A DNA stretch of 64,000 nucleotides from Diphasiastrum complanatum (taxonomy: Eukaryota > Streptophyta > Lycopodiopsida > Lycopodiales > Lycopodiaceae), in assembly GCA_029204225.1 (NCBI GenBank), contig MU831546.1:1-64000 (forward strand), read 5' to 3'. Every line of letters starts with the position of its first letter. The stretch's first letter is position 1. The position numbers were made by a program, and so were the translations under genes. Below the pieces are notes generated by a model, which saw only the letters and a program-made list of their open reading frames with translations, ran no database searches and was not told the origin of the DNA. Shown here in pieces: positions 3,728 through 46,336 of this stretch.

Positions 3728-3784
<57 letters not shown>

Positions 3785-3804
3785 GACCGAAGGACAGAGA
3801 AGGG

Positions 3805-3879
<75 letters not shown>

Positions 3880-6717: not shown

Positions 6718-6785
6718 AGGAGGGCTGGTATCTGGCTGACCTTTGTGTTTTTGCTCACGTGAGTAGAAGATATAAGTTGCTAGAG

Positions 6786-17619: not shown

Positions 17620-17757
<138 letters not shown>

Positions 17758-18978: not shown

Positions 18979-18990
18979 TGGTATCAAAGC
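18979..18990 (+). promoter_or_regulatory. Primer-binding site, initiator Met-tRNA
   Basis: TGGTATCAAAGC immediately follows the LTR end. Confidence 0.88.
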
Positions 18991-19578
18991 TTGTGTTTCA
19001 GGTTATGAAGGAGGAAATCGGATCTATCAATGATTTGGTGAACATATCAAGGCTAGAGCATGCTAGAGGCGATTCTACACCAAAATTGAGTTTTTTGCTT
19101 TTGTAGATTGGATCTTTTGTAGATCAAAACCTATATAGGTTTTCAAACTTGATCAATTCCGATTTTTGATTTCACATACTGGATTTGGCCAATTTTTGGA
19201 TCATTGGATCAGCCTTAGTGTTGGCTAATAGATTGCATATCAAATTTTCAGCATTTGCATGTAGATTTAGAATAGTCAATTTTTTGTGATTTTGTCAAAA
19301 CCCTAATTTTGATTGGATCTCTAGATAGTGAGGTTGCTAGACTTCATTTGAGTGTGCTTCAATCTTAGGAAGTGGCAAAAGTCATTAGATTGAGGATAGA
19401 TCATAGGTTGATCAAGATTCCATGATTATATGTGTTGATTTGCTTGGTATAAGTGCTAGAAGAGAATTTTTGAGATAGTTTCAAATCTTGGTGATTTCTT
19501 TTGAAAGCATTTGTTGTTGTTCAAAGGAGTGCTTTGTGCATTGAAACAGGTTGAAAAAGAAGATCAGGCCATTGCGAC
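18991..19578 (+). other. Untranslated leader of the copia derivative
   Basis: Non-coding sequence between primer-binding site and gag ATG. Its last ~50 bp recur at 23190-23247, where the copy lacks the rest of the leader. Confidence 0.7.
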
Positions 19579-22819: not shown

Positions 22820-23190
22820 TGTGAAAGATTTCATATTTGCTATATTTTCATATTTGGCATATGGAGGCCAAAACTTGTTTTAGATTAGAGATTGACTTTT
22901 CAAAGTTCATTAGTCTAAATGTCATTTGAATAAACACTTTTTGAAAGTGTGGGAAAGTTAGAATGCGAGTTTGAGTAGATTCAAATTGAATAATTGGGTA
23001 CATTGAATCTAGACCCAAAAATAATAGGGTTTGCATTTTGGAGGGAAAGCCAAGTGGCCAAATAGGGTTTGGACCTGCTATAAAAGGATGTAACTCGTGG
23101 AGAGAGCTATCTTCTCTCTTCTCTATCTCATTTCATGCTTATACATGGTTCTCTTGGGTTCTACTATCCATTGGTGCACTATCTCGGTGA
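22820..23190 (+). mobile_element. 3' LTR of the copia derivative, right part missing
   Basis: Closely follows the 5' LTR from TGTGAAAGATT through the TATA box (23079-23086) to GGTGATTA. It then joins directly to sequence matching the end of the leader (compare 19530). The missing stretch corresponds to the end of the LTR, the primer site and most of the leader. Confidence 0.85.
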
Positions 23191-23247
23191 TTACGGAGTG
23201 CTTTGTGCATTGAAATAGGTTGAAAGAGAAGATCAGGTTTTTGCTAC

Positions 23248-23990
23248 ATGGCAACCTCAATTGGAGTCATGTTGGAAGCCAATGATAGGCTAACCTCAAG
23301 TAAATATTCATTGTGGAAAGTGAGGAGGGAGTCACTTCTTGAGATGAATGATGTTTTGGATATTGTTGTAGGTTTGGAGGAGAGACCAGCAACACAACAA
23401 GATCAAATGAAGTATGACAAGAGGGCCAAGAAGGGTCTACACATGATAAAGATGAATGTTACCAATGAACTTCTCAAGGAAGTTGGTAAGTGCACAATAT
23501 CTTTGGAAGCTTGGAATTCACTGAAGAAGCTTTATGAATCCAAGTCTATTTCTAGAGTGCTGACTCTAAGAAGGCAAATCTTTTTTTGTTTGCAAAAGAA
23601 TGAAGAAAGTCCAAGTACTTTTGTTTTGAGAATGAAAGTATCGAATGATGAGTTGGCTTGCATTGATGAAAGCATTAAGGAAGGAGAGCTTATTCAAGTA
23701 TTTCTTAATGGCTTGTTGGATGCTCATGCTAACATTGTTCAAAGTATTGCTATTCAGAAGACTTTGCCAAGTTTGATGGATCTTCAAGAGATCTTGATCA
23801 ATGAGGAATATAGGCTTCAATCAAGAAGTGAATCTACATCGACACTTCAAGAGGATGCTATGTGCACAAAGGGCAAATTCAAGGGCAAAACCAAAAGTAA
23901 GTGGTCTAAAGGGCAAGATCAAGTGGATGCTTCTTCAAGTGACAAAAAGAAGGATACATCAAAGCTCAAGTGCTTCTATTGTGGCATCAT
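23248..23990 (+). pseudogene. Second copia gag, in a tandem truncated unit
   Basis: ATG at 23248 opens MATSIGVMLEANDRLTSS, an intact frame of ~247 residues closely related to the gag at 19579. It is cut in the middle of the zinc knuckle (CFYCGI) at about 23990, where a minus-strand copia begins. It lies directly downstream of the truncated LTR, so the whole is LTR-internal-LTR-internal. Confidence 0.9.
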
Positions 23991-26907: not shown

Positions 26908-27414
26908 TTGCTTTCAATCACAATTTCTAATCCACAAAATAGGTGTTATTCCCTTGGAGTAATCATTAGGGTCCATTAGATAGGTTTCTCTTTCACTGTT
27001 CACCTCCCCGGGAGAAGATCTAGAGCCAATGATGCCTAGATAAGCCAAGAGACCAAGATCTAAGAAAAGGATCCAACAAAACAAAAGAAACCCAAAAAGA
27101 GAATTAAAGAAGAAAGAATACCACTCCCAAATCTAAGTCATTCCAACACTAAGCTTGACACCCTTAGTTGGCTTAGATTTGCATCTCTTTTACGTAGTTT
27201 AACCCCCTCCCCTTTGGATCAAAGCCTGTTACTACAATCGATACTTAAATGGTGGAGATCCAATCCCTTTCTTGGCCCTCTTGATCGCACCAATAGGGAG
27301 GCACAGAAAGGGTCCAACATGATGCATGGTGCATGGGACATATGTGGTAAGGAAGAAGAGTGGCTGCAAAGTTTTACTCATCTTATGCAGTTCTGGCAAA
27401 TCGTTGAGATTCTT
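26908..27414. other. Unassigned sequence between a copia relic and the composite insertion
   Basis: No gene or clear repeat. The last five bases (27410-27414, TTCTT) are one copy of the target duplication of the composite insertion. Confidence 0.5.
27410..27414. repeat. Left target-site duplication of the palindromic composite (TTCTT)
   Basis: TTCTT before the TGTGGTGCC terminus; the same five bases follow the opposite terminus at 44611-44615. Confidence 0.75.
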
Positions 27415-27699
27415 TGTGGTGCCCTGTTATTAGAGTTCACATAAATTTTGGCTTTTTAACGATGTATTTTAAGGTTTAATGTGGTTCAGAATGCAAAATT
27501 TATTATTTTTGCACTATATATCTAGATCCCTATGACAACCAGATCATTCTTTTATTTCACTATACTTCATTGCTAAATCCTAATTACCATCAATAATGAG
27601 AGAATATTACTTTTATGTGGTCTCTTGGGGGATCGACAACTCATTATACTACATTCTACTGCATTTCTCTGTAAGCTTGTTGTGACATAAAGCTTATTT
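27415..27699 (+). mobile_element. Short LTR arm of the palindromic composite (plus orientation)
   Basis: Starts TGTGGTGCCCTG and ends at the primer site at 27700. The first ~115 bp match the starts of the two minus-oriented LTRs (41134 and 44610). The last ~170 bp match the inverted arm at 27772-27859 plus 40252 onward at roughly 92% by eye. The middle is missing, so the arm is only 285 bp. Confidence 0.85.
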
Positions 27700-27717
27700 T
27701 GGCGCTGTTGCTGGGGA
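27700..27717 (+). promoter_or_regulatory. Primer-binding site, tRNA-Asp, continuous with a whole tRNA complement
   Basis: TGGCGCTGTTGCTGGGGA is the complement of the 3' end of tRNA-Asp with two C-to-T differences. The complementarity does not stop after 18 nt but runs through the entire tRNA. Confidence 0.85.
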
Positions 27718-27774
27718 TCGAACCCGGGTCGTCTGCGTGACAGGCGGAAATACTCACCACTATACTACAACAAG
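27703..27774 (-). tRNA. tRNA-Asp(GTC)-like sequence, a primer-derived copy
   Basis: On the minus strand the 72 nt read as plant tRNA-Asp: TAGTATAGTGGTGAGTA in the D-arm region, CCGCCTGTCACGC as anticodon loop (anticodon GTC), GGGTTCGATCC as T loop. An encoded GCCA end is present, which nuclear tRNA genes lack. Mismatches in the acceptor stem (first base C), anticodon stem and T stem make it a poor functional tRNA. It sits exactly between two inverted LTR arms with the CCA at the LTR end, which points to a reverse-transcribed primer and not a gene. A tRNA finder may still report it. Confidence 0.85.
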
Positions 27775-27859
27775 CTTACAAAGAAATGTAGTAGAATGTA
27801 GTATAATGAATTGTTGATCCCCAAAGAGAGCACATAAAAGTAATATTCTATCATTATTG
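27772..27859 (-). mobile_element. 3' LTR of the non-autonomous element, outer piece split off by the gypsy insertion
   Basis: Inverted counterpart of 27600-27687. It joins the tRNA copy through the shared bases CAAC and is interrupted at 27859 by the gypsy element. The rest of this LTR is at 40252-41134. Confidence 0.85.
27855..27859. repeat. Target-site duplication of the gypsy element, left copy (TATTG)
   Basis: TATTG directly before the LTR end TGTGGGG. The undisturbed site is seen in a paralogous copy at about 42670-42685 (CATTATTGATGG). Confidence 0.92.
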
Positions 27860-28680
27860 TGTGGGGTCGAAGATCTCTCTTAGTATAGCCCTTCCGCCTG
27901 TCAACAAGGGTTAGATCACTGGATAGGTACCTAACTATGCATAGATGCTACTTTTAGTTAATTTCCTACTTTCTTCCTTAGCTCTATTCACCACTATACT
28001 ACTCCTCTTTAACTTTACCCCTCTACACTAACATTCATCATAATTTTGGTTGAAGAGAAGGAATGGAGGAGAAGAGATTGAGAAGGGAAGAGAAAGGGAG
28101 AGATAGAGAGTGAGGGTGGAGGTTAGCTCAAATGCTCCTTATGCTTGCTAATGGAAAAGCATTCACTATGGCAAACAATAAACATGGAAATAGAAAGCAA
28201 CGGAAAACACAATGAAGAGCATTAGCAAGTAGTGAATAGCAAATGAGGATGCTTCTCTTCCAAAAATGGTAGAATTTTCTCCTTCTCATTAAGCATGAAA
28301 ATAGTGTACAAATGGTGCCTTTTTATAAAATGGGGAAGGCCCTTGCCCCTCAATCTTATTGGCTAATATTCACAATGATCATATGCATTCATCTTGGACC
28401 CAACTTGATCCAAGGGTCCACAAAAAGTACATTAAAAATCACAAGATTCATGTGAGTCCCAATTTGGACCCAACTCTAAAAAGTGATCTCTAAGTTTAAA
28501 AATGACATTGGGCCTCTAGTTTTATTTAAATTCCAAGGCCCAAGTCAAGTTCATTTTATTTACAACTTTAATTGCGTGCTCATTGGGCCATGGGCTTATA
28601 CACGCAGGATGTGATGCTCTCGCAACACATTTTATAGGAGGATTTTATCTATTTACACTTTGTTGGGAATACCCCCAACA
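27860..28680 (-). mobile_element. 3' LTR of the gypsy element
   Basis: 821 bp. In element orientation it starts TGTTGGGGGT and ends ACCCCACA. Same length as the other LTR. Confidence 0.95.
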
Positions 28681-28726
28681 GGACTCACGGCTTAAAGTAG
28701 TGTCGGTCCCTCGGCACTCTGCCGGT

Positions 28727-31008
28727 TTAGTATAGCGTTCTCTTGGACCACCTCTGGTGGATCAGATAGCCCGTAACGTCTTCCATGAAGTTGAGGTGGT
28801 CTAGTTTCTTTGAGTCCTTTGGCGTGTTGAAGGACTTGTGGACTCCTGTCAGCCATTCCTGATCCACCCATGCTTGGAATTGTTTCGTCCAAGGATCTCC
28901 AAGGAATGTAGCTCGGTAATATATGCGAGCGACTGGCAGCTGGTCTTCGACTTTGTCAGAAGCTAGCACCTTATTTGGATCGAAAAATATGGAGGGAAAG
29001 AAATCATCCCATTTTGTTTCAATGCCCATTAAATATTCCAAGTCCCGGACGTAAGTGGCTGCCGCGCGGACTGTGGGATCGGGGCAATTGATATAGTGAC
29101 TGGCGAATGTGGAGAGAGCCCTTTTGGCGTCTACATCTGTAGTCCACCCATATTCGGATTTGATGATTGGCTAGTTGAAATTGTGTAGTGTGATCTAGTC
29201 CAGAGGAGTGTCGTATTCCGCCCATTTGGATCTTCTTGGACAGGGCAGGAAATGCGCGTTCACCCGTAACTGTTGCGAACTCGTCACGTAAGCCCTGATG
29301 GCCGCAGGGTCTCTCTCAAATAACTGATGTCGCCACTCCGGTTGTGGTTGGAGGGCGGAGAAGGCTTGCAGTTCTTTTCCCTTGATGGTCTGAGCTAAGA
29401 ATGATATCTACCAGCCACGCCTCTTGAGGACTCATGGGGATATTTGGATAAAAATTCATTGATGTTCTCCTCCACAGACTTTGGTCTTCGGAAGGCCCAA
29501 CTGGCAGATATCGTAGGCGAACCTCTGGATGATGTTGCTTGGCCTTGGCTGGTGGTTGCGCCTTGGCTCTGGTCTCGCGTCTTAGCAGTCGCATCTGTCT
29601 GCCCTTGGTCTTGGCCTTCAGACCCTTGATCTGGTTGAAATCAACCTGCTGCGTGCTGGTTTTGATCTTGGCTAGTACTAGCATGTGCAGTGTCAAACTT
29701 AGGTGGCGGTGGAATTACCATGGGGGTGGGTTGGGCCTTCGTTTTCATGTATTGTTGGCACGCCTTGAGGGCTTGCTTGGCCTGGGCGAGCTCTTGCATT
29801 GCGCTTGTCCGATACTTATTGAACTCCGCTTGGTAGCTGTTGAGGATTTGGCTATAAATTTGCACCTGACGCCGTAGAAGATTCATCTCTGATTGGGAAA
29901 GCGGCCCTGTGTCCTGTGCAGATTGAGCTAACCAAACGAGCTTTTCGTCTTGTAAGGCTTTGACCTTCGTCCCCAGGCGTGTGTCCTCTGCTTCCAAAAG
30001 TGTAAGTTGCGCCTGGATGGGGGCAAGTCGTTGGGATGCTTCAGCTTGAAGCTCCCGCACCTTTGTGGAGGCCTCAGTCAGTGCTTTGGAGAGGCTTTTA
30101 ATATATTTGTTTAGGCCCTCCTCCTTCTGTTGTAGCTTGGCAATCTCCTGGTGGCCTGCTTGTTCGTGTTGCTGAGCAAGAATCAGCTCTTGCTGCAGCT
30201 TGGTGAGGTCTACTCGCAGCTGTGTATTACTCATTGCCAAATGTAGTATCCTGCTTTCCAAAATAGCTTTGGCCGCTATCGCATCCAGGATGTATTTTCC
30301 TAGAGTTTGGTACGTCATCGTTAGATCCGTGGGAGCAGTTGGTACACTGGCACTAGCAGGGGCTTGTGTTGTATCGGCCCCGACAACTCGTAGAATTCCA
30401 TTGTCATTATCTTCGATCAGATTTTTATTTGTCCTGATGCCATCTAGGGCGGTAGGGTCAGTCCGATCTGGTGATGCTACAAAAATTGTTTGTACAAATG
30501 CGTCATCAGGCAGCGGTTGGCTACCCTCGACAACCTTTGTTGGCAAAGCGGGTGGGGTGTGAGAAACAATTGTGGAAACAGGGGTGAAGACGGTTTGTCC
30601 GAACGAGAGGATGGGAGGAACAGTGGGAAACTGAAGGGTGGTGTGGAGTATGGAAGAAGGTGAGGATGGAGCAGAAAGTGTCTGGCGTGGGAGTGAAAAA
30701 TTGATAACTTGCATCCATGCCAGAGTGTCGAGGGACAGTTGTGAATCAGAAGGATTGAATGTGAGAGGAGCAACGGTGGTGGCAAGAGTGGTGGAGGATG
30801 CGATGGTGATGGATGGAGTAGTGCACACTGGAAGAGAAGTAGGAGTGGTATCAACAAAGACAGAAACAAATGTGGATGGAACAGGAAGAGAGGTAGCAAC
30901 AACAGAAATTGGAACGGGGGGTTGCACGGAAGAAGAAGTGGCGATGGTTGATGGAGTAGTTAGTGCGACAGTGGAGACACATCTTCGGGTAACAGGTGGA
31001 GATGTCAA
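28727..31008 (-). pseudogene. Extra ORF between integrase and 3' LTR of the gypsy element (Ser/Thr-rich, coiled coil, unknown C-terminal domain)
   Basis: The frame from about 31008 runs 455 codons: residues 1-230 rich in Ser, Thr, Pro and Val, then a long heptad-like region (~233-425, for example LRVDLTKLQQELILAQQ) predicted to form a coiled coil. A TGA (29641-29643) ends this frame, but it reads on in the same frame for ~85 codons (EENINEFLSKYPHES). After a frame change near 29400 it continues as QTIKGKELQAF, then EYGWTTDVDAKRALSTF and IETKWDDFFPSIFFDP, to a stop at 28727. Two TAG codons (29195-29197, 29171-29173) interrupt this last part. I do not recognise the C-terminal domain and see no membrane segment, so an envelope protein is not supported. 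The first codon in this frame is not ATG. It may encode an accessory structural protein of the element. Confidence 0.6.
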
Positions 31009-31287
31009 TGTAGAGGCAGTGCCACGTATTTGTTTGCTGGCCTTGTGTTAATGACTGTAGGTTAGCAGGAGGTAGATGCTTGAGATGGTGGATAAAGGTC
31101 AGTATGTGGCACACGGGTAGACAGGAGGGATGAGCGTCGGAAACCATGCACTTTCGCCTCGAGAAGTGCACAGACAAAGTTACACGACAGGGGGCTTGCT
31201 GCGATTTGCCCACAGTTGTTGGGTTTGATGGAGTTTGTTAGTTCTCAAACAAGGAAGTTATGCCAGTCGTATGGCATAACGGAGGGG

Positions 31288-31689
31288 TTAGGGAGTTCCC
31301 ACTATCTGACTCAGCAGCGTAGACTGGATTTTGTCCTTGCGAAATGTTGAAATAACCAAAAAATTATTCAACAGATGCACAGCCTCCTGAATGACGGGTT
31401 TCGTGATAGCTTCTATTAGGTAACCATTGTTAGTCTGGATGGGGATTTCTGGTGTGGTTTGGGTGATGAATGATTTGATCAGAGCTTTGGCGTGGCGATG
31501 GGAGATGGGTTGACGATCACCGGACATAATGCCAATCGTGACCATCGAGTCGGCGTTAATCCTGACCTTGTACGTGGTACCTTGGTACATGAAGTGGAAA
31601 CAAGCCTTGACCTCGTCCCAGGTGGCGTAAGCGTGAAGGACGAGGCCCATGTTAATCTTAGAATGGAAGAACGTCGGGTAAAAACCCAT
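31288..31689 (-). pseudogene. Small extra ORF after integrase in the gypsy element
   Basis: ATG at 31689 opens MGFYPTFFHSKINMGL, 133 codons to TAA. The content looks like a real globular domain (TYKVRINADSMVTIGIMSG, EAVHLLNNFLVISTF). It lies in the same frame number as the 455-codon ORF downstream, with several stops between, so the two could be exons or parts of one protein. No known family is recognised. Confidence 0.5.
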
Positions 31690-32068
31690 TGCCACTAGAT
31701 CTCAAAAAATCATGAAAAAAGTGCTCTTTCAGAGTGTTTTTTGACGAGATCTCGATATTTTCTGATTTTTAACTTTTGTAAACTGGTAATCAGCTTCATC
31801 CAGGCTTGATCTGACTATTGGTAGTTCTCTGAAAGTTTTGATGGATTCTTGGTAGTAGATCCATCAGTCAATCTGATGATCTGCTTCCTTTTTTATCCTA
31901 ACAAGATTTGGATCCTCCTTGGATTCTGATGAATTTTTCCGATCTTGCCAGATCTGGCTGAATCTTGATGGATTTAGTTCGATTTGGCTTGATCTCCTTA
32001 GATCTAGCGGTGATGGCTGAGCAGATTAGCTTTTTGTAACGTGCTACCCCCAATCTGGATCTGTCTCA
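31690..32068 (-). other. Non-coding spacer between integrase and the extra ORFs
   Basis: About 380 bp with stops in all frames. A spliced or separate promoter for the extra ORFs could lie here, but I see no specific signal. Confidence 0.4.
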
Positions 32069-33242
32069 CTATGGTGGCCAGTACTTGTGCAACCGGCTAC
32101 CATTGATGGGTGTGTCGAATGGCATCCCATCTAGCTTTTCTAAGTTCACGGCCCAATGAATAAGAATTTCCTTGATCCTATAAGGACCTTCGCCCGTGAA
32201 TTTTAACTTCCCCTTGATCGCCTTCGTTTTATACATCAGGACCAGATCTCCTGAACGAAGATCCTTCTTTTGTAGTTTGCGATCATGACAAGCTTTGCAT
32301 CTTTCCTTTTCAGTTGCTAGTGCATGCACAGCTAGTAAGCGTATTTCACAGAGTTTATGCAAAGCTTCGTGGCGTAGCTGTAGAGATTTGGACTCATTAA
32401 GGTGTTGCGCGGTGGCAATCTTTAATGAAGGAACCAAAAACTCTACTGGCATCACAGCATCCTGACCATATACCAACTGGAAGGGTGTTTGATCAGTGCT
32501 TCCTTTAGATGTTGTCCTGAATGCCCACAGTGCAGCATGCAACTTGTGTTCCCAATCTGATCTGCTAGCTTCAACTGTTTTTGTGAGCATGCTACACAGG
32601 ATCTTATTGGATGATTCTGCTTGCCCATTACCACGAGGATAATAAGGTGTACTAGTTCTGTGGATCACGAAGAATTTCTCCAACAGGACCTTGATGGTCT
32701 TGTTGATGAAATGGCTTCCGTGATCACTGACTAGTTCCATCGGGCATCCGAAGCGCACAATGATATTTTCATAAAGGATCTCGGTAGTGGTCCTAGCATC
32801 AGCTACTCTTACTGCCTTGGCTTCGACCCATTTGGTGAGGTAGTCTATGGCTATGATTATGTATCGAGCCTGGGAACTCCTTGCTGCAAGGGTGAATTGG
32901 ACCAATATAATCCAATCCCCATTTTTTGAACGGTGCTTGGGCTAAGACTGGGTGCAGTAGATCATAGTTCAATCTCATTGGTCTCCTTGCCCTTTGGCAC
33001 ACATCGCACTTTTTCAAGTATTCCTTTGTATCTTTATGAATCATTGGCCACCAACATCCTAATTGCAGGATCCTGCGAACTGTAATGTCAGATGCAAAAT
33101 GACCTCCGCCCATGCATTCATGTGAAAGCGAAATGATCTGAGTGGCCTCATGAGGAAGAATACACCGTCGAAGAATTCCGTCTGAACCTCTTCGGTACAA
33201 CTGGCTGGCAATCAGCTGATAAGGTCTAGCCTTCAAGATCAA
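32069..33242 (-). pseudogene. Gypsy integrase
   Basis: Zinc-binding part at 33242-32799 (SHECMGGGHF, then LKKCDVCQRA: the HHCC pattern). The core domain at 32905-32069 has the three catalytic acids in AIDYLTKWVEA, LVSDHGSHF and NGQAESSNK. The C-terminal part ends GSRLHKYWPP without a chromodomain. A frame change near 32880 separates the two ORFs. Integrase would join element cDNA to host DNA. Confidence 0.93.
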
Positions 33243-33355
33243 TTTCTGCTATTTCGCCTTTGGTAGTGATTTTTCTGGCTGGCCCCACATTAGATATTCA
33301 ACAATGTTGGCAGCCCATTATGGTACTGTGTCCACGTAAAATAAGACAGCATCTG

Positions 33356-34930
33356 TCAGCTCATCGTCGGGTTGGGTTGCAATCTCCTTTCCCTTGATTC
33401 GTGACCCTTGCGAACTACTATCCGAAAATCAAATTCCAACAACAGAAGGAGCCATCTGGTGATTCTGCTGATGTTGCAAGTTTTATTAACGAGATATAGC
33501 AAGGGTTGATGGTCCGTATAAAAAGCAAAATGTGTGGCCATCAGATAGTGTCGAAACTGCGTAACCGCATAGATCATTGCTAGTGCTTTCCGCTCTGTGG
33601 TTGAATAATTCATTTTGGTATCGCTGAGTTGTCGGCTTGCAAATCGGATTGGAAAATCCTTTTAATGTTCACCTGGCTAGGTTAAGACTGCTCCAACGGC
33701 ATACTTCGATGCGTCCGTATGCACATGAAACTCAATGGACCAATTGGGTGGTCGTAAGATTGGTGCTGAGACCAATGCATTCTTAATCTTCTGGAAAGCC
33801 TTTAGAGCTTCCTCATTCCAATGTGGATCCATTGTGAGCTTGTAAATTGGTCTGGCTAACTCCGCAAAATCAAGAATGAATATCCTATAATAGTTAGCAT
33901 GACCCATGAAAATGTAGACCTCGCGGATCGTCCCTGGTGGTGGTGGATTAATAATGATCTTGATCTTTGATAGGTATGTGGCGATCCCGTGTCTTGACAC
34001 TATATGGCCAAGTATCAAGCCATGTGTTACCCAGAATTGACATTTTTCTGGATTCACGGAGATCTGGTATTCACGTCATTTTTGTAGCACCTTCTCCAAA
34101 TTGGATAAGTGTTTTGAATCTGGTCCATGCACGCACAGATCGTCCAAGAAAATTTCCAAATTTTTTTGCAAATAATCTTTGAATGTCGCCTGCATGACTC
34201 GATGGAAAGTGCTTGGGGCATTGCGAAGTCCGAATGACATCACTTTATAGGCATAAGTTCCCCATTCCGTGGCAAATGTTGTCTTGTGTTGGTCCTGGGG
34301 GGCTATTTTCACCTGGTTGTAGCCACTAAAGCCATCCAGAAAACTGTAGGCTTTGTCGCCAGCTACTCTATCGAAAACACTTTCCATAAATGGTAAAGAA
34401 AAATGGTCCTTTTTGGTGACTGCATTAAGCGCCTTCAGATTCACACAGATCCGCATTTTGCCATTCTTCTTAGGTACTATAACTATTGGTGATACCCATT
34501 CTGTGTGCTCGATTTCATAAATGAAATATGCGTCCATCAGCTTCTGCAACTTTTGCTTGATCAGTTCTGTATAATTCGGGTTGCAGTGGTAGTAACTGCT
34601 CACCTTGGGGACTACTCCGTCCACCAAAGGTATGGTATGTTGGACTACTGTTGGCGGAATGCCCTTTAGATCACTATAGCTCCAGGCAAAACAGTCTTTA
34701 TATTCCACCAACAAGGATCGTAGTCTCTTGAACTGCGTGGGTGTTAACTGCTCTCTCACATGCACCATCCTTTCTTCTTCTCCTGGTTCCGCAAGATTCA
34801 GTGGTTGTGTTCGTGTAGGTCCCTTGAAGACTTGTTCTACTGGTGCCTGACTTTGATCAGGTTCTTGTTGGGCTTGCGGCATCATGATTATCAAGTCGTC
34901 CAATGTATAATTCTTGAAATTATCAGGCAT
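33356..34930 (-). pseudogene. Gypsy reverse transcriptase and RNase H
   Basis: RT at 34930-34076 has the template-grip block (WVSPIVIVPKKNGKMRICVN), SFLDGFSGYNQ, FGLRNAPSTF and the catalytic FLDD (LEIFLDDLCVHG). An in-frame TGA at 34076-34078 leads to the connection segment (NPEKCQFWV), then DASKYAVGAVL of RNase H (34057-33677). RNase H continues at 33613-33356 (STTERKALAMIYAVTQFRHY, FYTDHQPLL). Homology is strong over the whole length; at least one stop and one frame change make it inactive as read. Confidence 0.94.
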
Positions 34931-35591
34931 CTCGTGAACTAGAGCTCATCGAGATTCCTCCTTCAACATATTGATCTTGTCCCGACTGGTCATTTTTTAA
35001 TTTTTTGTCACCTGTGTAGAAGATGACGCTGTATTCGAGTCCAACTTGATTGACTTTAAGAAATCCAACACCTTCTTTTTGCTCTTTTTTGTCATTTTGG
35101 TGGGTTCATCCTTGTTGTCTTTCTTCGGGACTGCTGTGACATTCGCCTCATGGTTGCGAATATCAACGTCTACTGTAGCTATTGCCTCTTCGGTAGGTCA
35201 CTCCATCGGATCACCTGGTTATAGCATTGCTCCAACTGATTCTTCTTATTAGTAGGTGCCTTGGGTGGATCGATCCTTGAGACTTTTGCCATAGTAGACT
35301 TTTGTGGGGGTTGAGCTGATACCTTCTTGGTTCTGTAACGATCTTGGTCCATGTGGTGTAGGACCTGTTCATCAGTCAGCTCAATCTCCTTATTATAAGT
35401 TAGAGCATGTTACCAAGGGACTAGATCATCGTCCACTGGGTTCTCAATCGGCTCCGCTGACAGCCATGCTACGTTTATCACATTCACCCAAATGTGATTG
35501 GTATAATATTTGGGTGAAGATGTACTCGGTTCGGGATTTGATTCATATTGACATGCCTGGTAGTCAATAGTTGCTAATGCATCTGTCCATC
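34931..35591 (-). other. Linker between protease and reverse transcriptase of the gypsy element
   Basis: Degenerate pol linker with several stops. Pieces such as RWTDALATIDYQACQ and LTDEQVLHHMDQDRYR read as polyprotein, but no catalytic domain is expected here. Confidence 0.5.
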
Positions 35592-36176
35592 TCATGACAT
35601 CCATCTCTGAAGGGGATAGTGACCTCCCTTGGCTGGCCTTGGGCGATCAATCGTATGATCTATCGTGGATGATCCGTCATCAGCCTTGGGTGCAATAGGT
35701 TTCACCGCCAATGTGGTTGGATCTACCTTTACAGCATGTTCTCTATTCTCGAAGGTGAGTTTCCCTGTACCCCAATTGTGTACTACTTGCGCAGTCCTCA
35801 ACCATGGTCTTCCCAGTAAAACACGGTATGCAGATGGAGATTCAAGTATATCCATGACCGCAAAAGTAATCACAAACCGCATGCCTGCTATCTTTACGGG
35901 AATATCGGCAACTACACCTTTTGGTTTCACACAAGATTGATCTACTAGTTTGATGGCGAATCTTGTTGGCTTCAATCCTTGTAAACCCCATTTTTTGTAC
36001 AAAGTAGTGGAGATCAGATTGACACCCGGTCCTCCATCTACTACTGTCACCTCGTCCTCATATCTCTTGTGTTTGATTGGCAAAGTGATGTTGTGTTCCT
36101 CACTTTCCCATGATGCTCCGATGTGGAGGACGTTACTTGTTTCATCATAGACCGCACAATATATGGGCTCAGGCAC
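35592..36176 (-). pseudogene. Gypsy aspartic protease region
   Basis: Open frame with the active-site segment VVDGGPGVNLIS, where most retroviral-type proteases have D-S/T-G; plant gypsy elements with DGG are known to me but I cannot check the lineage. The C-terminal flap/helix segment is YRVLLGRPWLRTAQ (the typical ILGRPWL motif). It follows the nucleocapsid frame with one break. It would cleave the Gag-Pol precursor. Confidence 0.85.
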
Positions 36177-36208
36177 TACTGGCTCCTCATCTGCTTTGGC
36201 CCATTCAG

Positions 36209-37420
36209 CTAGAAGGCTTTTCGCTTGTGGTGCAATCCACAGTAGTTCTCCGAGTGGTAAACTAACATGCTTGACAGCAAAAGTGTGAGCTTTTTAGTGC
36301 GTGGTTCCTCAGGCTCCACCATGTGAAAGGGTGGTTCATGTTGGTGAAACCGATCATTCTGATCAGTGCACAGTGGTGAGTCCACTTGCGGTTCCTGTTC
36401 GACGCTGACTGGAGGTTCTGTGAGATTGTCTCGTTCTTGCTCTTTTTTCTCCTCTTGAGCTTTTTGTACCCAGTGTCTTCTTTTCTGGTACTGTCTTCTC
36501 TCTTCCCTCACATTTGGATATGGCACTGAAGTTGAGGGTTGGTCGTTAGTGACCGATGGTGGTGGTGAGGGAGCCACTTCCTTCTTCTTCTGTGCTCGCG
36601 TAACAGCTAACACAGGAGCGTGGTCTTGTCGACCTTTCGATGGCATCCCTGCTGGAACTGTTGGTTGCTGTATGGTAATGAGGTTAAGAGGTGCACTGGT
36701 TCCAAGTTTAAATGGACAATTCTTGAAACAGTGTCTATAACCGCAATCTCGACATGAGGTTGTATATTGTCCCTTGTGGGGACATTCTGCAATCCTATGT
36801 CCTTCGTCGCATCCGTAACAGTCGTAATTTCTTTCACCTTGACATTGAGTTTGAGCTGCATAGGCCGAAACATATTTATTCATGACAGGATCTATAAATG
36901 GTTCATCTGGTCCGTACCACTGCTGCTGCTCAAGTTGAGGTGGCATTTGCATCTCTTGTTCCGCTGTTGTCAGGTTTACATGGGCCACTTGTTGATTGGC
37001 TAGCCCTGGTGGAGCAGGTAAGGCCATGCATTGTGGTTGATTGGGTGCGTCGTACCTTGGTGCCGCGTTAGGTGCCCCTTGATGATAAGGATAAGAAGTC
37101 TGATAAGGACTTCTCTTCTGCTGAATAACCCTGGCGTTAAACGAGAAAAATGTCGTATCGTGAGATGTTGCATTGCACAGATGGTAGAATCTATGTGTCA
37201 GTCTCAGATTTTGCTTTAAGACTGAGCACTCGTTCGCTATATGGTTTTGCGTACATACTGAACACCATACATTTTCTTGTCGAGGATACTGCAGCTGGTT
37301 TGGTTCCGGTTGATGTGGAGTTACTGCTACAGTTCCCTGTAAGGCCTTTAGTTTTTGGTCAAACTACGCCGTAAGTTGCTCCATCTACTGTTTGTGTGAT
37401 TTTATCATTTGCTCCAACAA
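36209..37420 (-). pseudogene. Gypsy Gag nucleocapsid region with several zinc knuckles
   Basis: The frame starts as LEQMIKSHKQ*MEQLTA*FDQKLKALQ, a helical segment with two Gln codons turned into TAG (37385-37387 and 37364-37366). Knuckles follow. CSVCTQNHIANEC, CYGCDEGHRIAEC and CRDCGYRHCFKNC each read C-x2-C-x3-H-x4-C, one residue shorter than the usual C-x2-C-x4-H-x4-C. A fourth (YHLCNATSHDTTFF) fits the standard spacing with both outer Cys lost. The region ends in a charged tail before protease. It would bind element RNA. Confidence 0.85.
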
Positions 37421-38117
37421 CAGCAGATGCGTTTGATGATGATGATGCGATCGAGGGAGTAGGAGTGTGGGTGGAAGGATATTCGTCATCAGATCCCTCA
37501 TCTTTTTCTCTGATGGCATCTTCCATCGCTTCTTGCAGAGTAGCATACTGCTCCCGTCGTTTCAGTTCTCTTCTGGTGCTTCGTGGTAATTCGGCTAGGA
37601 ACCACATGATCACTGCATGATCGAAAGTCAGGGATGCACTGCACTTGGATCGTATATGTTTGACCCATTCAATATAGTCCCGGACCCTTTCTCGTTTTCC
37701 CATCTTGACTTTGCTCAGCAAGAGAAACGGGTCTTCCAAAAATTTTCTTGGTTTAAAGCGCATAATGAGAGCCGCTTTAACCGCTTCCCAGGTGGATTTT
37801 TCTTCCTCTGACAGGTAGAGAAACCAATCTTGAGCCACTGCTAGCAAAGACATAGGGAATAGCATCATCTTCTTCGCAGGTGTCCGTTCGCCGTACATTT
37901 TACAAGCTTGCTCGTAGATCTGGAGGAATCGGATGGGATCTGATGATCCGTCATATTTTGGTATCTCCATCTGTGGTGCTCTCTGAACTGCTTGCAAGGG
38001 TGCGACAGGTTGGCCCATTGGATCCATTGGTGTTGGTTGCACAGCTGCTAATCTGGGAAGGTGTGGTGCCTGACTTGCTATCCTTCGTACTATTGATCGT
38101 CCGGATCTCAGATTCAT
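37359..38117 (-). pseudogene. Gypsy Gag capsid region
   Basis: ATG at 38117 opens MNLRSGRSIVRRIASQ. The retrotransposon gag domain follows: PKYDGSSDPIRFLQIYEQAC, FPMSLLAVAQDWFLYL, STWEAVKAALIMRFKP, KRERVRDYIEWVKHIRSKC. A frame change near 37440 moves the reading to the nucleocapsid frame, and the capsid frame itself ends at 37359. It would form the particle shell. Confidence 0.9.
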
Positions 38118-39412
38118 CCGATGGTGGGTTCCAAAGTGATTGGACCTTGCTTATACAATAGGATGCAGTCTGGATCTTCAAGAATTTGATTGATTCGATC
38201 GGCCAGAGTGAATTTTAGGCCTTTTACGGTGGTTTTTCCATGATAACTTTTTATTCCTTGCACTAATTGACCTGAGATTTTGACAGTAGTTGGATCTGAT
38301 GTAGATCTTTCCACTGATCTGGTCTGCAAGGGTTATCTTGTGCGAGGATTGGTTGTGCAAGGGTTCTTTAGCTGTTTTTGTAGGTAACAAACTTGATATC
38401 CTTCAAATCTCTGGGAAGTAACTCTCGCAAGGTTCACAATGGCTAGATCTGGGTCAAATCTCACTATAGAATTCTCTACAAGAGTTAACTCTTGCAAGAA
38501 GTGAAAATTTCACTGTCTACGAGGGTTCAAAATCACTTTTTGTGCTTGATCTTCACCAAATCTTCATACTAACTCTCGCAAGCTACATCACTGATGTAAT
38601 TTGACATTCTGAATCGTTTGAGAGGGTCTGCGAGAGTTCTTACTAGAAGGATTTGCTAGATCTTTATTTTTTAGTGATTTTTTAGCACTTAAATCCAATA
38701 ATCTGCTCACTGGAATCAAACTAACTCTCGCAAGTTCTTTTGTGTCTTGTCTCATTGAGATGGAACTTCAGAATCCTCTGCGAGAGTTCTTGACCACTGG
38801 AACTGAAAATTTCACTGTCTACAAGGGTTCATTGGTACTTTCCCATCTTTTTTTCACTAGGAACTCTCGCACAAGCACTTCCACATCAAACTAACTCTCG
38901 CAAGCTTCTCTGTGTCCTGGTCTCACTGAGATGGAACTTCAGAGGGCTCTGCGAGAGTTCTTATGAAGATTTGAATTTTTTTTTTGATTTTTTCAAGGGT
39001 TTTTTAAAAATTTTATGATTTTTCTCTGATTTTTACAATCTGCTTGGAACTAACTCTCGTAGGCTTCTATGTAGGTCTGGGACAACACCCTGGAGCTGCT
39101 GCCAGTCATGCAAGGGTTAATTCCCACTGATTCTAAAGATATAAAACTCTGATGAGTTTTTTTTGGCTCTTTTCCCCTCCAAAATACAGATTGGTGTGTT
39201 TTTTGAGTTTTTTGGCTGGTTGGTTTGGGTTTCAAGCCCTTAGAGGTTGTTCAGGGCCTCCTCTACCCTCTCACACCTCCTTCGCTAGCTGTGAACAGCC
39301 CAAACACAAAAAAATATAGAAAACTAACTCTAACTCCCACAAATATACTTAAACTACTGTAAAAAACAAGAAAATAGCTAAAATGCAGCTAAACTAGTTA
39401 GTGGAAACCTAT
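38118..39412 (-). promoter_or_regulatory. Leader of the gypsy element with repeated stem-loop modules
   Basis: Untranslated region between primer site and gag. AACTCTCGCA recurs at 38420, 38571, 38723, 38862 and 38893, and its exact complement TGCGAGAGTT at 38629, 38779 and 38950. Three direct-inverted pairs (38571-38638, 38723-38788, 38893-38959) could each form a 10-bp stem. The second and third modules are also alike inside the loop (TCTCATTGAGATGGAACTTC and TCTCACTGAGATGGAACTTC). A role in RNA packaging, dimerisation or translation is inferred. Confidence 0.7.
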
Positions 39413-39430
39413 CCCCGGCAACGGCGTCAC
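39412..39430 (-). promoter_or_regulatory. Primer-binding site of the gypsy element, tRNA-Asp
   Basis: In element orientation GTGACGCCGTTGCCGGGGA follows the LTR end, matching the complement of the tRNA-Asp 3' end (TGGCGCCGTTGCCGGGGA) with one central G-to-A difference. Confidence 0.88.
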
Positions 39431-40251
39431 TGTGGGGTCGAAGATCTCTTGTACTATAGCCCTTCCGCCTGTCAACAAGGGTTAGATCACTGGATAGGTA
39501 CCTAACTATGCATAGATGCTACTTTTAGTTAATTTCCTACTTTCTTCCTTAGCTCTATTCACCACTATACTACTCCTCTTTAACTCTACCCCTCTACACT
39601 AACATTCATCATAATTTTGGTTGAAGAGAAGGAATGGAGGAGAAGAGATTGAGAAGGGAAGAGAAAGAGAGAGATAGAGAGTGAGGGTGGAGGTTAGTTC
39701 AAATGCTCCTTATGCTTGCTAATGGAAAAGCATTCACTATGGCAAACAATAAACATGGAAATAGAAAGCAACGGAAAACACAATGAAGAGCATTAGCAAG
39801 TAGTGAATAGCAAATGAGGATGCTTCTCTTCCAAAAATGGTAGAATTTTCTCCTTCTCATTAAGCATGAAAATAGTGTACAAATGGTGCCTTTTTATAAA
39901 ATGGGGAAGGCCCTTGCCCCTCAATCTTATTGGCTAATATTCACAATGATCATATGCATTCATCTTGGACCCAACTTGATCCAAGGGTCCACAAAAAGTA
40001 CATTAGAAATCACAAGATTCATGTGAGTCCCAATTTGGACCCAACTCTAAAAAGTGATCTCTAAGTTTAAAAATGACATTGGGCCTCTAGTTTTATTTAA
40101 ATTCCAAGGCCCAAGTCAAGTTCATTTTATTTACAACTTTAATTGCGTGCTCATTGGGCCATGGGCTTATACACGCAGGATGCCATGCCCTCGCAACACA
40201 TTTTATAGGAGGATTTTATTTATTTATACTTTGTTGGGAATACCCCCAACA
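39431..40251 (-). mobile_element. 5' LTR of the gypsy element
   Basis: 821 bp, near-identical partner of 27860-28680. Differences are mostly single transitions, with a cluster of three near the U5 end. Confidence 0.95.
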
Positions 40252-40256
40252 TATTG
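40252..40256. repeat. Target-site duplication of the gypsy element, right copy (TATTG)
   Basis: TATTG directly after the LTR; joining it to 27859 restores CATTATTGATGGTAATTA as in the paralogous copy near 42670. Confidence 0.92.
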
Positions 40257-41134
40257 ATGGTAATTAGGATTTAGCAATGAAGTACAGTGAAATGGAAGAA
40301 TTATCTAGTTGTCATAGGACATATATGAATGGCAGCCAGTGCTGCCAAGGAAATTATACAGGGTAAAACAAACAACAGAGAAAATATTCAGAATGTTCAA
40401 CCATAAAGGATGTTAGTCCTCTGACTCAAAATAGTCGCTAAAGAATCTGCCTGGTGACCGTTGATGGCTGAAAGTCAGAGGCGCATCTTGAGATAGAAAC
40501 TACCGCTGCTACAAATTTGCCACGCTGCCTCAGTAGGATACATTAGTGGCTCGCTAATGAGGAAGTCAAATCGAAACCTTCTGTTGGTGAAATGGCAATG
40601 GGAGGGTGCACAAAAGGAATGTGTGAGGGCATATTTGCCCCAGAAATCATCCCCCATCAGACCTAAATGCACTGCCTTTAGAAACAAAAGAATGTCTTTA
40701 GATACCTAACTCTTGCCCTTTAGTGTATCTTCATTCAATTGGTACTGGCCTTTTAAAATTTTCCAAATAATCATTGCCTCAAGAATAAATTGACTTTGGA
40801 GGACTCCTTTGGAAATAAAGATTTTAGAATGAATTTTACATGAGCAAAATCTTTACGAATAGGCCTTAGTGCCATCAGCTGCCTTGATGTCTTGGCAAAC
40901 AAGAATTCAGATTTGCCATGACATATTCTTTCAACATTTGAGTAAGAAATCGAAGAGCAAGCCAAGAACTCCAACAAGTTCAAGTGTGTCTTCAAAACAT
41001 AAAGACTTGAGTTACAAAGGCACTAGATATATGGTGCAAAAGTAATAAATTTTGCACTCTGAACCCCATTAAAGCTTAAAATACATCGTTAAAAAGCCAA
41101 AATATTATGTGAACTCTAATAATAGGGCACCACA
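40252..41134 (-). mobile_element. 3' LTR of the non-autonomous element (main piece)
   Basis: With 27772-27859 this makes an LTR of about 970 bp. In element orientation it starts TGTGGTGCCC at 41134, right after a purine tract. It matches the 5' LTR (42568-44610) at both ends but lacks about 1.1 kb of its middle. Confidence 0.85.
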
Positions 41135-41150
41135 TGTCCCCCTCCTCAAG
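41135..41150 (-). promoter_or_regulatory. Polypurine tract of the non-autonomous element
   Basis: In element orientation CTTGAGGAGGGGGACA ends exactly at the TGTGGTGCC start of the 3' LTR. Confidence 0.8.
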
Positions 41151-42549
41151 TGCGCAGCGTCCTCGCAAGCAGAATAATCATTGAGCAATATGAATCAGCA
41201 AGAGTCTTCGACCATGATCATAGATACATAAAAGTCAATCTACAGCTTGAAACTAGTGATAGTAGCAGGTTTGCATTTGCCACAGTCTTCATAAAGTTTT
41301 GACCAAAATGTTGGCATGAAGACTATCGAATAGAATTGCAGACAACTGTATGCTACTTCGAAGAATAATGAAAAATCAGCATAATAGATGTGGATAACAG
41401 ATCCATCTGAAAATCATCCTTTAAATTAGCTTCTTCTCTGGCAGCAATGATCAGTCCAGTAAAAATCAGTAGATTTGAATATAATAGCACTTGGAAAAAT
41501 ATAAGAGCAATAAGTTTGTTCGTCACATCCAGCACTTGGAAAAATTAGTATTGTGCGACCAGCCAGCAGTATATAAACATGCAACAACCAATCAGAACCA
41601 GTGAGTAAACTCTAGCAAAGAAAACAAGGTACAGTACAACAACATCTAATAAATAGATGTGCATCTGACATCTTCCTTTAACATCAAAAAATCAGGATTT
41701 ATCGGCCTCTTGGATAACATCATAGGCTGAAAACAAATTTTTATTTGACATAAAGATCATGTAGATAAACATTCCAAACCAAAGCAAGACAATATAAAAA
41801 CAAAACAAGAACGAAATTCTGGAAAAGCATGGATCATAAAATGCTTACGGAAAACCAGAATTTTATTAACATGATAGAGGACCTTCAGTCTGCACATAAC
41901 AAAACTGAACAAATTTGACAAACTGTAAATAAATATAGAAAGCTACAAGAAATGAAAAACAAAAAGTAAAAACTAGGTCCGGTGCTTCATGGTGGCTAAA
42001 AATACTGATATAATAATAAACAAATCAATTTTGCCTCTTTCTTTCTTGAATCTTCTAAATATTGGGATAATAGACAGCCTGCACTTTTTTGCCTTCAAAT
42101 TAGATTGACAAAGAAAATAGGCCTTCCACAAGTGTAATAAACAACCTTCAAGAGCAGTCAAGGCTTCTTGAAATAGCAAATCAAAAACGCTTCTTTCTCT
42201 CATAAGTAAATATAAATTCCTGAGGTTTAGCTCCTGTCACATTAGATATTTCTTCGACAGATCTTCTATGATAGGACATAATCCTTCAAATACATAGACG
42301 ACATGTATAGCTATGGCACACAGGCTAAAATCACCTACAACTATCTCCTCAGGTAGAGAGTTTGCAAAATAGGTTGAGAGCAGGGAAGCAAGAATGGCCA
42401 AAAATTCTTCCCCCTCCTTAGAGTCAGGTATAGAGCTTTCAAGAACTGACTCTGCAACATCTGAACTATGGACTGCTTCAACAGGAGGAAAACAGTTGTC
42501 ATTCAAAAAATCAGATAATGGATAGAAAATTTCTTCTTATTGGTTGTGC
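41151..42549 (-). mobile_element. Internal region of the non-autonomous LTR element, no pol genes
   Basis: About 1.4 kb between primer site and purine tract without any gag, protease, RT or integrase homology. Near the primer site an open frame (42506-42237) reads PVEAVHSSDVAESVLESS and has no ATG; it may be a gag remnant or chance. Size, paired LTRs and absence of coding capacity fit a LARD-type element mobilised by another element's proteins. Confidence 0.75.
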
Positions 42550-42567
42550 TCCCCGGCAACAACGCCA
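42550..42567 (-). promoter_or_regulatory. Primer-binding site of the non-autonomous element, tRNA-Asp
   Basis: In element orientation TGGCGTTGTTGCCGGGGA, one difference from the exact tRNA-Asp complement, next to the 5' LTR end. Confidence 0.85.
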
Positions 42568-44610
42568 AAATAAGCTTTATGTCGCAACAAGCTTACAGAG
42601 AAATGCAGTAGAATGTAGTATAATGAGTTGTCGATCCCCGAAGAGAGCACATAAAAATAATATTCTGTCATTATTGATGGTAATTAGAATTTAGCAATGA
42701 AGTACAGTGATATGGAAAAATAATCTTGTTGTCATAGGACATTTATAAATGGAGAAACTAACCATCAACTCAGTACTAAGATCAGAAACAGGGTTGAGAA
42801 CAAGATCTGTGCACTATAAATCAAGTTTCAACTTAGACAATACATCATATTTCACAAGGCCAAACGATTGCTCTGACAATGCCTACAATGAACTACCTTG
42901 TCCCTCAACATCCAAGATAAACTTGCTACTCTAGAGTTTTGTAAAAGGAATCCTGACCCACTGTATAGTTCGATTAATATTGGGTAAGACTAGTTACAAA
43001 TCTATAGAGTGTAGAATCCATTATTCAACAGAATCACAATGACATTCACAGAAATTCTTAATAGGCACAAAATATTGGTGATGTGAATCATTCAACAGGA
43101 ATAAAAAATACAATGTAACATTCTTGAAAAACAAAAACTGCCTGTCACACACTTCTTCAGATCCTTGCAAGATATAGTCGACAAACATAAGGCTGACAAA
43201 TCACTGCATTGATTCAAGCTTGCCAGTGATAGTAAACTACATTCCATTCTGTAGTACAGACAAAGGACATAGCAAAAAGTTCTCTACTCCTGTCTACTAC
43301 TCTACAAAACAGCGAATGAATGAATGAAAAGGAGCAGGCTCTGGCATGTGTATCCAACAAAAACTCGTAGAAGAGGCATAGGCCTTCTAACTGCTTCAAG
43401 TACATGAACAAATGGAGACATGCCATGTGGAACAAAGCTTTCATTAACCAGTAGCATGTTGCCACAGAGGTTTTGCCAAGTACAATGGCCCAAATACCAT
43501 TTACATATGTTCATGAAGCCCATCTGACCCATATGCTATCCATGTTGGCCATAGATCTACCTTTGTAAACTATGATGGATGAAAAAGTGTTGGAAGAGCG
43601 CTGAAGGAAAACCATCACTGCTAGAAAACTGCTTCTTGAAACTCGTTTAGAACTCCTAGAAATGACCAAGTAAAGAAGAAAGAAATAGTTATGGTGCGCT
43701 GGAGGCTGCCGCAGATCTGATCTTTGGTGTGCGTTGGAAAACGTTGGGCTGCCACCGACTGTGTGGGAAATCTGCCTGGCTATTTGCTAATGGCTGCTAC
43801 CTGATCTGCGTAGAGAAAATGCACTGTTGGCTGCACACTGATATGCATCAGCCCTAGATTCTGCCCTTGCTGTCTTAGAAGAATACACAAAAGTATTTGA
43901 AGATCAAAGCCACAACTGCTATAGAAAGATAGCAACTGAACGTAGTGCTAGCAAATCTACGTAAAGGATGTTAGTCCTCTAACTCAAAATAGCCGCTAAA
44001 GAATTTGCCCAGTGACAGTTGATGGCTGAAAATCAGAGGCGCATCTTGCTGCTGCTGGTGAAATGGCAATGGGAGGGTGCACAAAAGGAATGTGTGAGGG
44101 CATATTTTCCCTAGAAACCATCGCCCATCAGACCTAAATGCACTGCCTTTAGAAACAAAACAATGTCTTTAGATATCTAACTCTTGCCCTTTACTTTAGT
44201 GTATCTTCAGTCAATTGGTAATGGCCTTGAAAAATTCTCCAAATAATCATTGCCTCAAGAATAAATTGACTTTGGAGGACTCCTTTGGAAATAAAGATTT
44301 TAGAATGAATTCTACATAAGCAAAATCTTTACGAATAGGCCTTAGTGCCGTCAGCTGCCTTGATGTCTTGGCAAACAAGAATTCAGATTTGCCATGCCAT
44401 ATTCTTTCAACATTTGAGTAAGAAATTGAAGAGCAAGCCAAGAACTCCAACAAGTTCAAGTGTGTCTTCAAAACATAAAGACCTGAGTTACAAAGGCACT
44501 AGATATATAGTGCAAAAGTAATAAATTTTGCACTCTGAACCACATTAAAGCTTAAAATACATCGTTAAAAAGCCGAAATGTTATGTGAACTCTAATAACA
44601 TGGCACCACA
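42568..44610 (-). mobile_element. 5' LTR of the non-autonomous element (long form, 2.0 kb)
   Basis: Starts TGTGGTGCCA at 44610 in element orientation. The first ~640 bp match 41134-40404 and the last ~165 bp match 40330-40252 plus 27859-27772. The ~1.2 kb between (42735-43960) is unique to this copy and non-coding. Confidence 0.82.
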
Positions 44611-44615
44611 TTCTT
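44611..44615. repeat. Right target-site duplication of the palindromic composite (TTCTT)
   Basis: Same five bases as 27410-27414, immediately outside the terminal ..GGCACCACA. Confidence 0.75.
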
Positions 44616-44860: not shown

Positions 44861-45627
44861 TGTTGGGAGTATTTCCATGTTAAAAAAAAATAGTAGAAAT
44901 AGGTTGTGAGGGTCGTGACATCCTACGTGCGTAAGCCCATGGCCCAATGAGCACTTGCAAATAAATAATTTTGGGAATAAACTTGACTTTGGGCCATGTA
45001 ATTAAAATAATATTAAGAGGCCAAAGTTTTAGCTTAACTTACGTTTCTAAGTTTTGTGAAATAGTCAAAAGTCAAATGGTGGTAGGTTGGGTGTGCTTCT
45101 TCCTACACCATAGATTAGATTGTGCTTCTTGTGAAGGGTGTGGATTTCAGTCCCACCTTCTTGCAAGTAGCCAATAGGAAGCAAGGGGCAAGGGCCACCC
45201 CAAAGATAAAAATGCACCATTTGTAATCATTTTTCATGCTTATTTGATAGGAGGAGACTCTACTATTTTGAAAACTCAAGCATCCTTATGTGCTATCTTT
45301 GCTTGCTTATGCTTTTCATTGTGTTTTGCTTCTTGTTTTGCATTTGGTAATTCTTGCTTTGCAATAGTTAAAGTTTCTCCATTAGCATGCTAGGATGAGC
45401 GCATGAACTAACCTCTCTCTAACTCTTTTCGCTCCCTCTTTTCACTCTCAATCATGATGAATGTATGTGTTTAGAGTTAGTGAAGGTAGAGTTAAATTGG
45501 GGTAGTGTTAAAAAAGAGTTAGATAAGCATCTAAACTAGCAACTAAACATAGTTAGGAACCTATCCAAGTGTTCTAACCCTTTTGATAGGCGGAGGGCTG
45601 CTCACCACATGTTTTACACTCCCTACA
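44861..45627 (+). mobile_element. Gypsy-type 5' LTR related to the 12.4-kb element
   Basis: Starts TGTTGGGAGT, ends CCCTACA, 767 bp. It shares blocks with the 821-bp LTRs read in reverse, such as AAGCCCATGGCCCAATGAGC and the TAGGAACCTATCCA..TCTAACCC end. It is an older, diverged member of the same family in the opposite orientation. Confidence 0.85.
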
Positions 45628-45646
45628 GTGGCGTCGTTGCTGGAGA
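45628..45646 (+). promoter_or_regulatory. Primer-binding site, tRNA-Asp (diverged)
   Basis: GTGGCGTCGTTGCTGGAGA follows the LTR; about three differences from the exact tRNA-Asp complement. Confidence 0.75.
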
Positions 45647-45936
45647 TAGGCTATCACTAACTAGCTATAGTTGTTCTTTTAGTTGTTTTTGCTTTTTAGC
45701 GTGTTTTAGGTGGATTTTGGGGTAGAGTAAGCTTGTTTTGTGTGCTTTTTGGTGATTGGCCTGTTGAGAGCTAGTAGAGGAGTGTGGAAGAGTAGTAAAG
45801 ACCCAAAACAGCCTCTAAGGGCTTTGCATTCCATCACAAACCTCGAAAACCATAAAAAAACATTCAAATCTATTTTTGGAGGGAAAAAGTGGCCAAAAAC
45901 CACTCTAGACCTTATTTCTCAAAACCCACTAGGAAC
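45647..45936 (+). mobile_element. Start of a gypsy leader, truncated
   Basis: Resembles the first part of the leader of the 12.4-kb element (the CTAACTAG.TATAG.TG block and a CCAAA..GCCTCTAAGGGCTTTG segment). It is cut off at about 45936, where a copia LTR begins. Confidence 0.6.

Positions 45937-46247: not shown

Positions 46248-46336
<89 letters not shown>

Follow-up and report, generated by a model that had tools for sequence, protein, structure and literature searches.

How can an almost complete tRNA come to lie exactly between two long terminal repeats (LTRs) that face each other with their U5 ends? The question is raised by positions 27415-44610 of the first 64,000 nucleotides (hereafter, the window) of contig MU831546.1, from the assembly GCA_029204225.1 of Diphasiastrum complanatum. 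This stretch is confirmed as a single insertion of an abnormally built LTR retrotransposon, non-coding and primed by tRNA-Asp, in which an LTR, a 12-nt spacer and the complement of a tRNA-Asp are followed by a complete element in inverse orientation, running from its 3' LTR through the internal region and an ordinary 18-nt primer site to its 5' LTR. We consider it very probable that such an arrangement is explained by the read-through of a whole tRNA by plus-strand strong-stop DNA, the joining of the product to a full-length cDNA through microhomology, and the integration of the resulting molecule. The original prediction had already described a palindromic LTR element built around a copy of its primer; what it observed is confirmed and its interpretation is supported, with several amendments that are given along with the corresponding evidence.

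A primer tRNA copied almost to its end

The left LTR (27415-27687, plus strand) measures 273 bp, with a shortened middle; it starts with TGTGGTG at the beginning of U3, and its end is predicted at the last CA. The original prediction had placed this arm at 27415-27699 and was right about its start and strand, but the LTR ends at about 27687 and the remainder is a 12-nt spacer (27688-27699, plus strand), the same that is found at the ordinary primer site of the inverted element (42568-42579). The spacer is followed by a 72-nt copy of tRNA-Asp(GTC) on the minus strand (27700-27771), with CCA at 27700-27702, so that the plus strand reads as the complement of the tRNA. ARAGORN reports a tRNA-Asp(GTC) on the minus strand at 27700-27774, the sole tRNA found in the 64 kb, and Rfam places RF00005 at 27703-27774 with 40.8 bits (gathering score, 29), the sole gathering-level match in the window (a match to the OppA thermometer, with 14.7 against a gathering score of 290, was disregarded). 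Both programs include positions 27772-27774 in the tRNA, although these are LTR bases. Judged by the plant tRNA-Asp sequence, the copy presumably lacks about 3 nt at the 5' end of the tRNA, and several of its differences resemble CpG decay. The tRNA and its CCA stand as predicted, and the "whole" tRNA is probably better described as a nearly complete one. The folding of the copy alone is uninformative (z of 0.43, with 130 of 200 shuffles folding at least as well), which may be due to a putative decay of the copy.

This tRNA is a copy of a primer and has the polarity that such a copy should have; it carries CCA and is preceded by an LTR and by the same 12-nt spacer as the ordinary site at 42550-42567. 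CCA is not encoded in plant nuclear tRNA genes. An ordinary tRNA gene is thus ruled out by the CCA at 27700-27702 and by the LTR sequence on both sides, and the insertion of a tRNA gene or of a short interspersed nuclear element (SINE) is rejected on the same grounds together with the exact primer position, in agreement with the original prediction that a random tRNA gene insertion would not give this arrangement.

How far does the match to the tRNA extend at other primer sites? With a tolerance of up to three mismatches, the window contains four primer-site-like matches, against a mean of 0.16 in shuffled sequence. Taking the tRNA copy as the reference, the other three sites agree with it at 15/18, 16/18 and 15/18 of the first 18 positions, and at 13/54, 14/54 and 14/54 of the next 54 nt, for which random stretches give a mean of 13.2 and a maximum of 23. 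Because the other sites fall to the random level after about 18-20 nt, one and the same insertion holds an ordinary 18-nt primer copy and a 72-nt copy. In the latter, the complement of the tRNA goes on beyond 18 nt, includes CCA and is contiguous with the LTR and the spacer, as whole-primer read-through would leave it.

The inverted element and its joint with the tRNA

On the other side of the tRNA, the whole element lies on the minus strand. Its 3' LTR begins with the U5 part (27767-27859), which stops 4-5 nt short of the predicted LTR end and contains a TATTG duplication at 27855-27859, and continues, after a younger element, from 40252 to the U3 start at 41134, the first 5 nt of this remainder being the second copy of TATTG. 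Next come the internal region (41135-42549), in which the longest listed open reading frame (ORF) lying wholly inside has 89 aa, and which includes the polypurine tract region (41135-41147; GAGGAGGGGGACA before TGTGG in element sense), the ordinary 18-nt tRNA-Asp primer binding site (42550-42567), where the tRNA match stops, the second 12-nt spacer (42568-42579) and a 5' LTR of 2031 bp (42580-44610), whose last position is the outer end of the insertion.

The arms 27591-27683 and 27767-27859 are identical in inverse orientation at 86/93 nt. The computed alignment therefore shows the inverted homology that the original prediction demanded, as well as the resumption of the inverted arm at 40252, beyond the younger element with its TATTG; the palindromic build holds for these arms, but not as a perfect palindrome, the left LTR having only 273 bp. 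A self-primed fold-back on the same LTR is ruled out by the continuation of the inverted arm into the polypurine tract, the internal region and a second LTR. For that same reason an intermolecular U5-to-U5 join is preferred here over the "snap-back" cDNA of the original prediction.

At the joint, the motif ACAAC (GTTGT in element sense; 27767-27771, assigned to no strand) is common to the 5' part of the tRNA and to the LTR end, with an overlap of 4-5 nt. In element sense, the inverted 3' LTR ends in ...AAGCTTGTTGT and is followed by the tRNA, AGTATAGTGG..., and the ends with which it can be compared are ...AAGCTTGTTGTGACA in the left LTR and ...AAGCTTGTTGCGACA in the inverted 5' LTR. The certain overlap is GTTG, that is, the CAAC microhomology already predicted, and it would grow to 5 nt if the source LTR read GTTGT. 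It sits 4-5 nt from the predicted LTR end, and the insertion's only 3' LTR is precisely the one that lacks these last 4-5 nt, its CA terminus being deduced from the two other LTRs. The LTR side is joined very near its predicted natural end, and the tRNA side would be too, given the usual length of a plant tRNA-Asp. Among random joints in the window, overlaps of 4 nt or more occur with a frequency of 0.020, and those of 5 nt or more with 0.0068.

A probable single integration with two U3 tips

Both outer tips of the insertion are U3 starts, and directly outside them the 5-mer TTCTT is found at 27410-27414 on the left and at 44611-44615 on the right (as a target-site duplication, assigned to no strand). 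The chance of an identical 5-mer at two random places of the window is 0.0015 (200,000 draws). Considered separately, the left LTR stands between TTCTT and TAAAG; for the inverted element the two neighbours are ATACT (or ACAAC) and TTCTT, and there is no duplication in either case. Since TTCTT is shared at the far ends and each half by itself lacks a duplication, the chimera was probably integrated as one molecule, which supports the integration step of the original prediction.

The LTRs starting with TG, the polypurine tract, the tRNA primer site and the 5-bp target duplication make this element a non-autonomous LTR retrotransposon; viral-contig patterns and a plasmid comparison gave no match, as expected for a plant element. 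It resembles the non-coding or non-autonomous tRNA-Asp-primed plant LTR elements, LARD-like or with an Athila-type primer, with which it shares the LTRs, the polypurine tract, the tRNA-Asp primer site and the absence of a recognised coding region. Ordinary elements of this sort are not known to have an inverted LTR or a full tRNA copy.

A proposed route from strong-stop DNA to an integrated chimera

What course of events could produce such a molecule? The anatomy, the ordinary 18-nt primer site within the same insertion, the junction overlap and the 5-mer outside both U3 starts can be read from the sequence as such; from them, we infer the strand identities, the order of the steps and the joining agent, which might be the reverse transcriptase or host alternative end joining. 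A non-autonomous, tRNA-Asp-primed element would have undergone reverse transcription with two or more cDNAs present. Plus-strand strong-stop DNA would have begun at the polypurine tract and run through U3, R and U5; outside the left LTR, target DNA is found directly at the U3 start, with no polypurine tract, as would follow from a strand that starts at that tract. Instead of stopping after 18 nt, synthesis would have continued over practically the entire tRNA primer, which the minus strand still carried, leaving a tRNA-derived 3' end unable to pair for the normal second transfer. That end could then have paired, by the 4-5 nt of ACAAC/GTTGT, with the plus-strand 3' end of a full-length cDNA, at the latter's U5 end, after which the overhangs of a few nucleotides would be lost and both 3' ends extended. 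The product would be a linear molecule both of whose tips are U3 starts, the tRNA being enclosed by two U5 ends, and the integrase, accepting both U3 ends, would have inserted it with duplication of TTCTT.

Who made the join? That the reverse transcriptase did so by template switching inside the particle is, provided that the above explanation holds, a possibility to which we give somewhat less than an even chance. The enzyme would have stopped about 3 nt before the tRNA 5' end, and the ACAAC-3' end would have served as a primer on another cDNA, whose plus strand was then copied as far as the U3 start. This is consistent with the 4-5 nt overlap at the primer end, and Sabot and Schulman 2007 (PMC1950507) propose template-switching complexes for LTR elements of cereals that are flanked by duplications. 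Nonetheless, the loss of a 4-5 nt LTR overhang would still be required on the second strand, and sequence alone cannot separate template switching from host end joining.

Three LTRs that are not alike

The LTRs made in a single ordinary round of reverse transcription should be identical, and those of this insertion differ in length (273 bp in the left, about 975 bp in the inverted 3' and 2031 bp in the inverted 5' LTR) and in their middles. The outer two are 94.6% identical over 112 nt at the U3 start, but measure 273 and 2031 bp, and the inverted 3' LTR departs from the inverted 5' LTR at 25/557 and 7/87 positions of their two longer shared blocks. The unshared middles (40333-40403, 40491-40577 and 42753-43961) have no other match in the window at an E-value of 0.01. 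In the 264 ungapped columns shared by the three (13 columns with gaps, mostly at block edges, were set aside, and the two blocks at the nested insertion have up to 5 columns in common), the private changes amount to 8 in the left LTR (one of them at a deletion edge), 7 in the inverted 3' LTR and 6 in the inverted 5' LTR. This star-like pattern, with three about equally distant LTRs, speaks in favour of read-through followed by microhomology joining.

Several points weigh against it. The three LTRs are unlike in structure, with unshared middle pieces, and 4 of the 264 shared columns hold three different bases; under a star model with even rates, at least 4 such columns are expected with a P of 0.001-0.009, which rises to 0.01-0.28 when rates vary. 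The three-base columns and the structural differences therefore call for distinct templates or for later deletions with filler, so that either variant RNAs would have been co-packaged or the LTRs would have suffered separate later deletions. The sure overlap at the joint is of only 4 nt, a length attained by 2% of random joints; the LTR end and the 3-nt gap in the tRNA are both predicted ones. Moreover, according to Yu et al. (PMC1785368), no extra tRNA sequence was found in proviruses even with an A58U tRNA.

Other origins of the insertion

Among the origins that would dispense with read-through, the best surviving one, in itself very improbable, is that a solo LTR and an inverted element were inserted separately and later rearranged, enclosing a tRNA gene or a SINE derived from a tRNA. 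Plants commonly contain nested and rearranged insertions, and the unlike structure of the LTRs would fit; such a history, however, would have to produce by chance a single TTCTT pair at the far ends only (0.0015, as given above) and a CCA-bearing tRNA in exactly the place of the primer. Slightly less plausible still is autointegration, in which the integrase would have inserted one LTR end into another cDNA. Inverted LTR products of this type are known in retroviruses and Ty elements, but here no processed LTR terminus in ...CA exists at the internal joint, and one of the partners ends in a tRNA, an end that an integrase is not expected to process. Least credible of all is an assembly or library artefact from a fold-back read; palindromes are typical of such artefacts, but these arms differ at 7/93 nt, one of them contains a younger element, and a fold-back would make neither a CCA-tailed tRNA nor a shared far-end 5-mer.

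The nested element and the neighbourhood

The younger element is a Ty3-type LTR retrotransposon on the minus strand (27860-40251) that does not belong to the chimera. Its 821-bp LTRs (27860-28680 and 39431-40251) are identical at 809/821 positions (12 differences), its own duplication is TATTG, and it has a primer-site match of the tRNA-Asp type at 39412-39429 (minus strand). Its coding region is spread over several separate minus-strand ORFs, and Pfam matches to an integrase core, a reverse transcriptase and a Ty3 capsid were obtained in 3 of the 6 ORFs scanned. It is a later, ordinary insertion that split the inverted 3' LTR, an order consistent with the 25/557 and 7/87 differences in the blocks shared by the inverted LTRs against 12/821 in the nested element.

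An old relative of the nested element's LTR and leader (about 68% identical) lies in the opposite orientation at 45168-45905, and a primer-site-like match is located within it (45629-45646). Elsewhere in the window, direct repeats that are 91-92% identical and, judged by eye from their ORFs, copia-like occupy 18373-20304 and 22840-23989; long dinucleotide-type repeats at 3581-3877, 17625-17756 and 46250-46332 match one another; and a 509-aa ORF on the plus strand (6714-8243), with a weak match to Methyltransf_29 below the cut-off (21.4 vs 23 bits), is possibly a plant gene among the repeats. This match, to a plant methyltransferase family, and the types of element present point to a plant host.

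Relation to known products of reverse transcription

Is there any precedent for such an insertion? Under narrow search terms, no report of an integrated head-to-head LTR, whole primer tRNA and inverted LTR was found in the open-licence literature, surveyed mostly at the level of listings, a scope outside of which lie subscription papers and older papers on retroviral circle junctions. The closest likeness for the first step is the read-through in vitro cited in Yu et al. (PMC1785368), where HIV-1 plus strands are said to copy the primer, tRNA-Lys3, past the 18-nt stop at A58 and as far as A37, and where extra tRNA sequence is said to compromise the completion of the provirus. The present insertion goes beyond it, with nearly the whole tRNA copied and integrated.

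Regarding the overall build, Sabot and Schulman (PMC1950507) describe plant insertions with three LTRs and one target duplication, which they explain by abnormal template switching. Three LTRs of the same family within one insertion and a single flanking 5-bp target duplication are common to both cases. Their complexes, however, have two core regions in the same orientation that share an LTR and are joined at R, whereas here there is one core region and a head-to-head U5-U5 arrangement through the tRNA; furthermore, the portion of their text considered here mentions no tRNA, and the outer LTRs differ greatly in length in the present insertion. Primer-site or primer-derived sequence between LTR ends is also known from the junctions of HIV-1 2-LTR circles, of which PMC5618025 tabulates examples with primer-binding-site sequence. 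Those circles are unintegrated and joined U5 to U3, unlike the integrated, U5-U5 joined insertion with 72 nt of tRNA described here. As for the joining itself, the 2025 review PMC12786077 states that alternative end-joining factors are reported to use microhomology in second-strand transfer, and that plants have this pathway.

What the insertion may tell about priming

This insertion provides genomic evidence that an essentially full-length tRNA-Asp with its CCA tail primed an LTR element, apparently one of a plant; PMC12786077 states that partial tRNAs are required for the priming of plant LTR elements. The insertion further suggests that failure of the 18-nt stop is possible in vivo, that a few matching bases can rescue the resulting dead-end strand, and that the integrase accepts two U3 ends. 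Might this be more than a single accident? A leaky 18-nt stop in the host lineage, combined with a regular rescue of read-through strong-stop DNA by the microhomology end joining of the host, would generate a class of insertions with two U3 tips; we regard this as a tentative and rather unlikely extension, but, if it were true, such insertions would record which full tRNA primed them and where its copying ended. In any case, the anatomy (U3 tip, LTR, full tRNA complement and inverted U5) offers a simple signature for counting primer read-through across sequenced genomes, and the insertion itself seems to be the fossil of an error of replication for which the other evidence comes mainly from in vitro work and unintegrated viral DNA.

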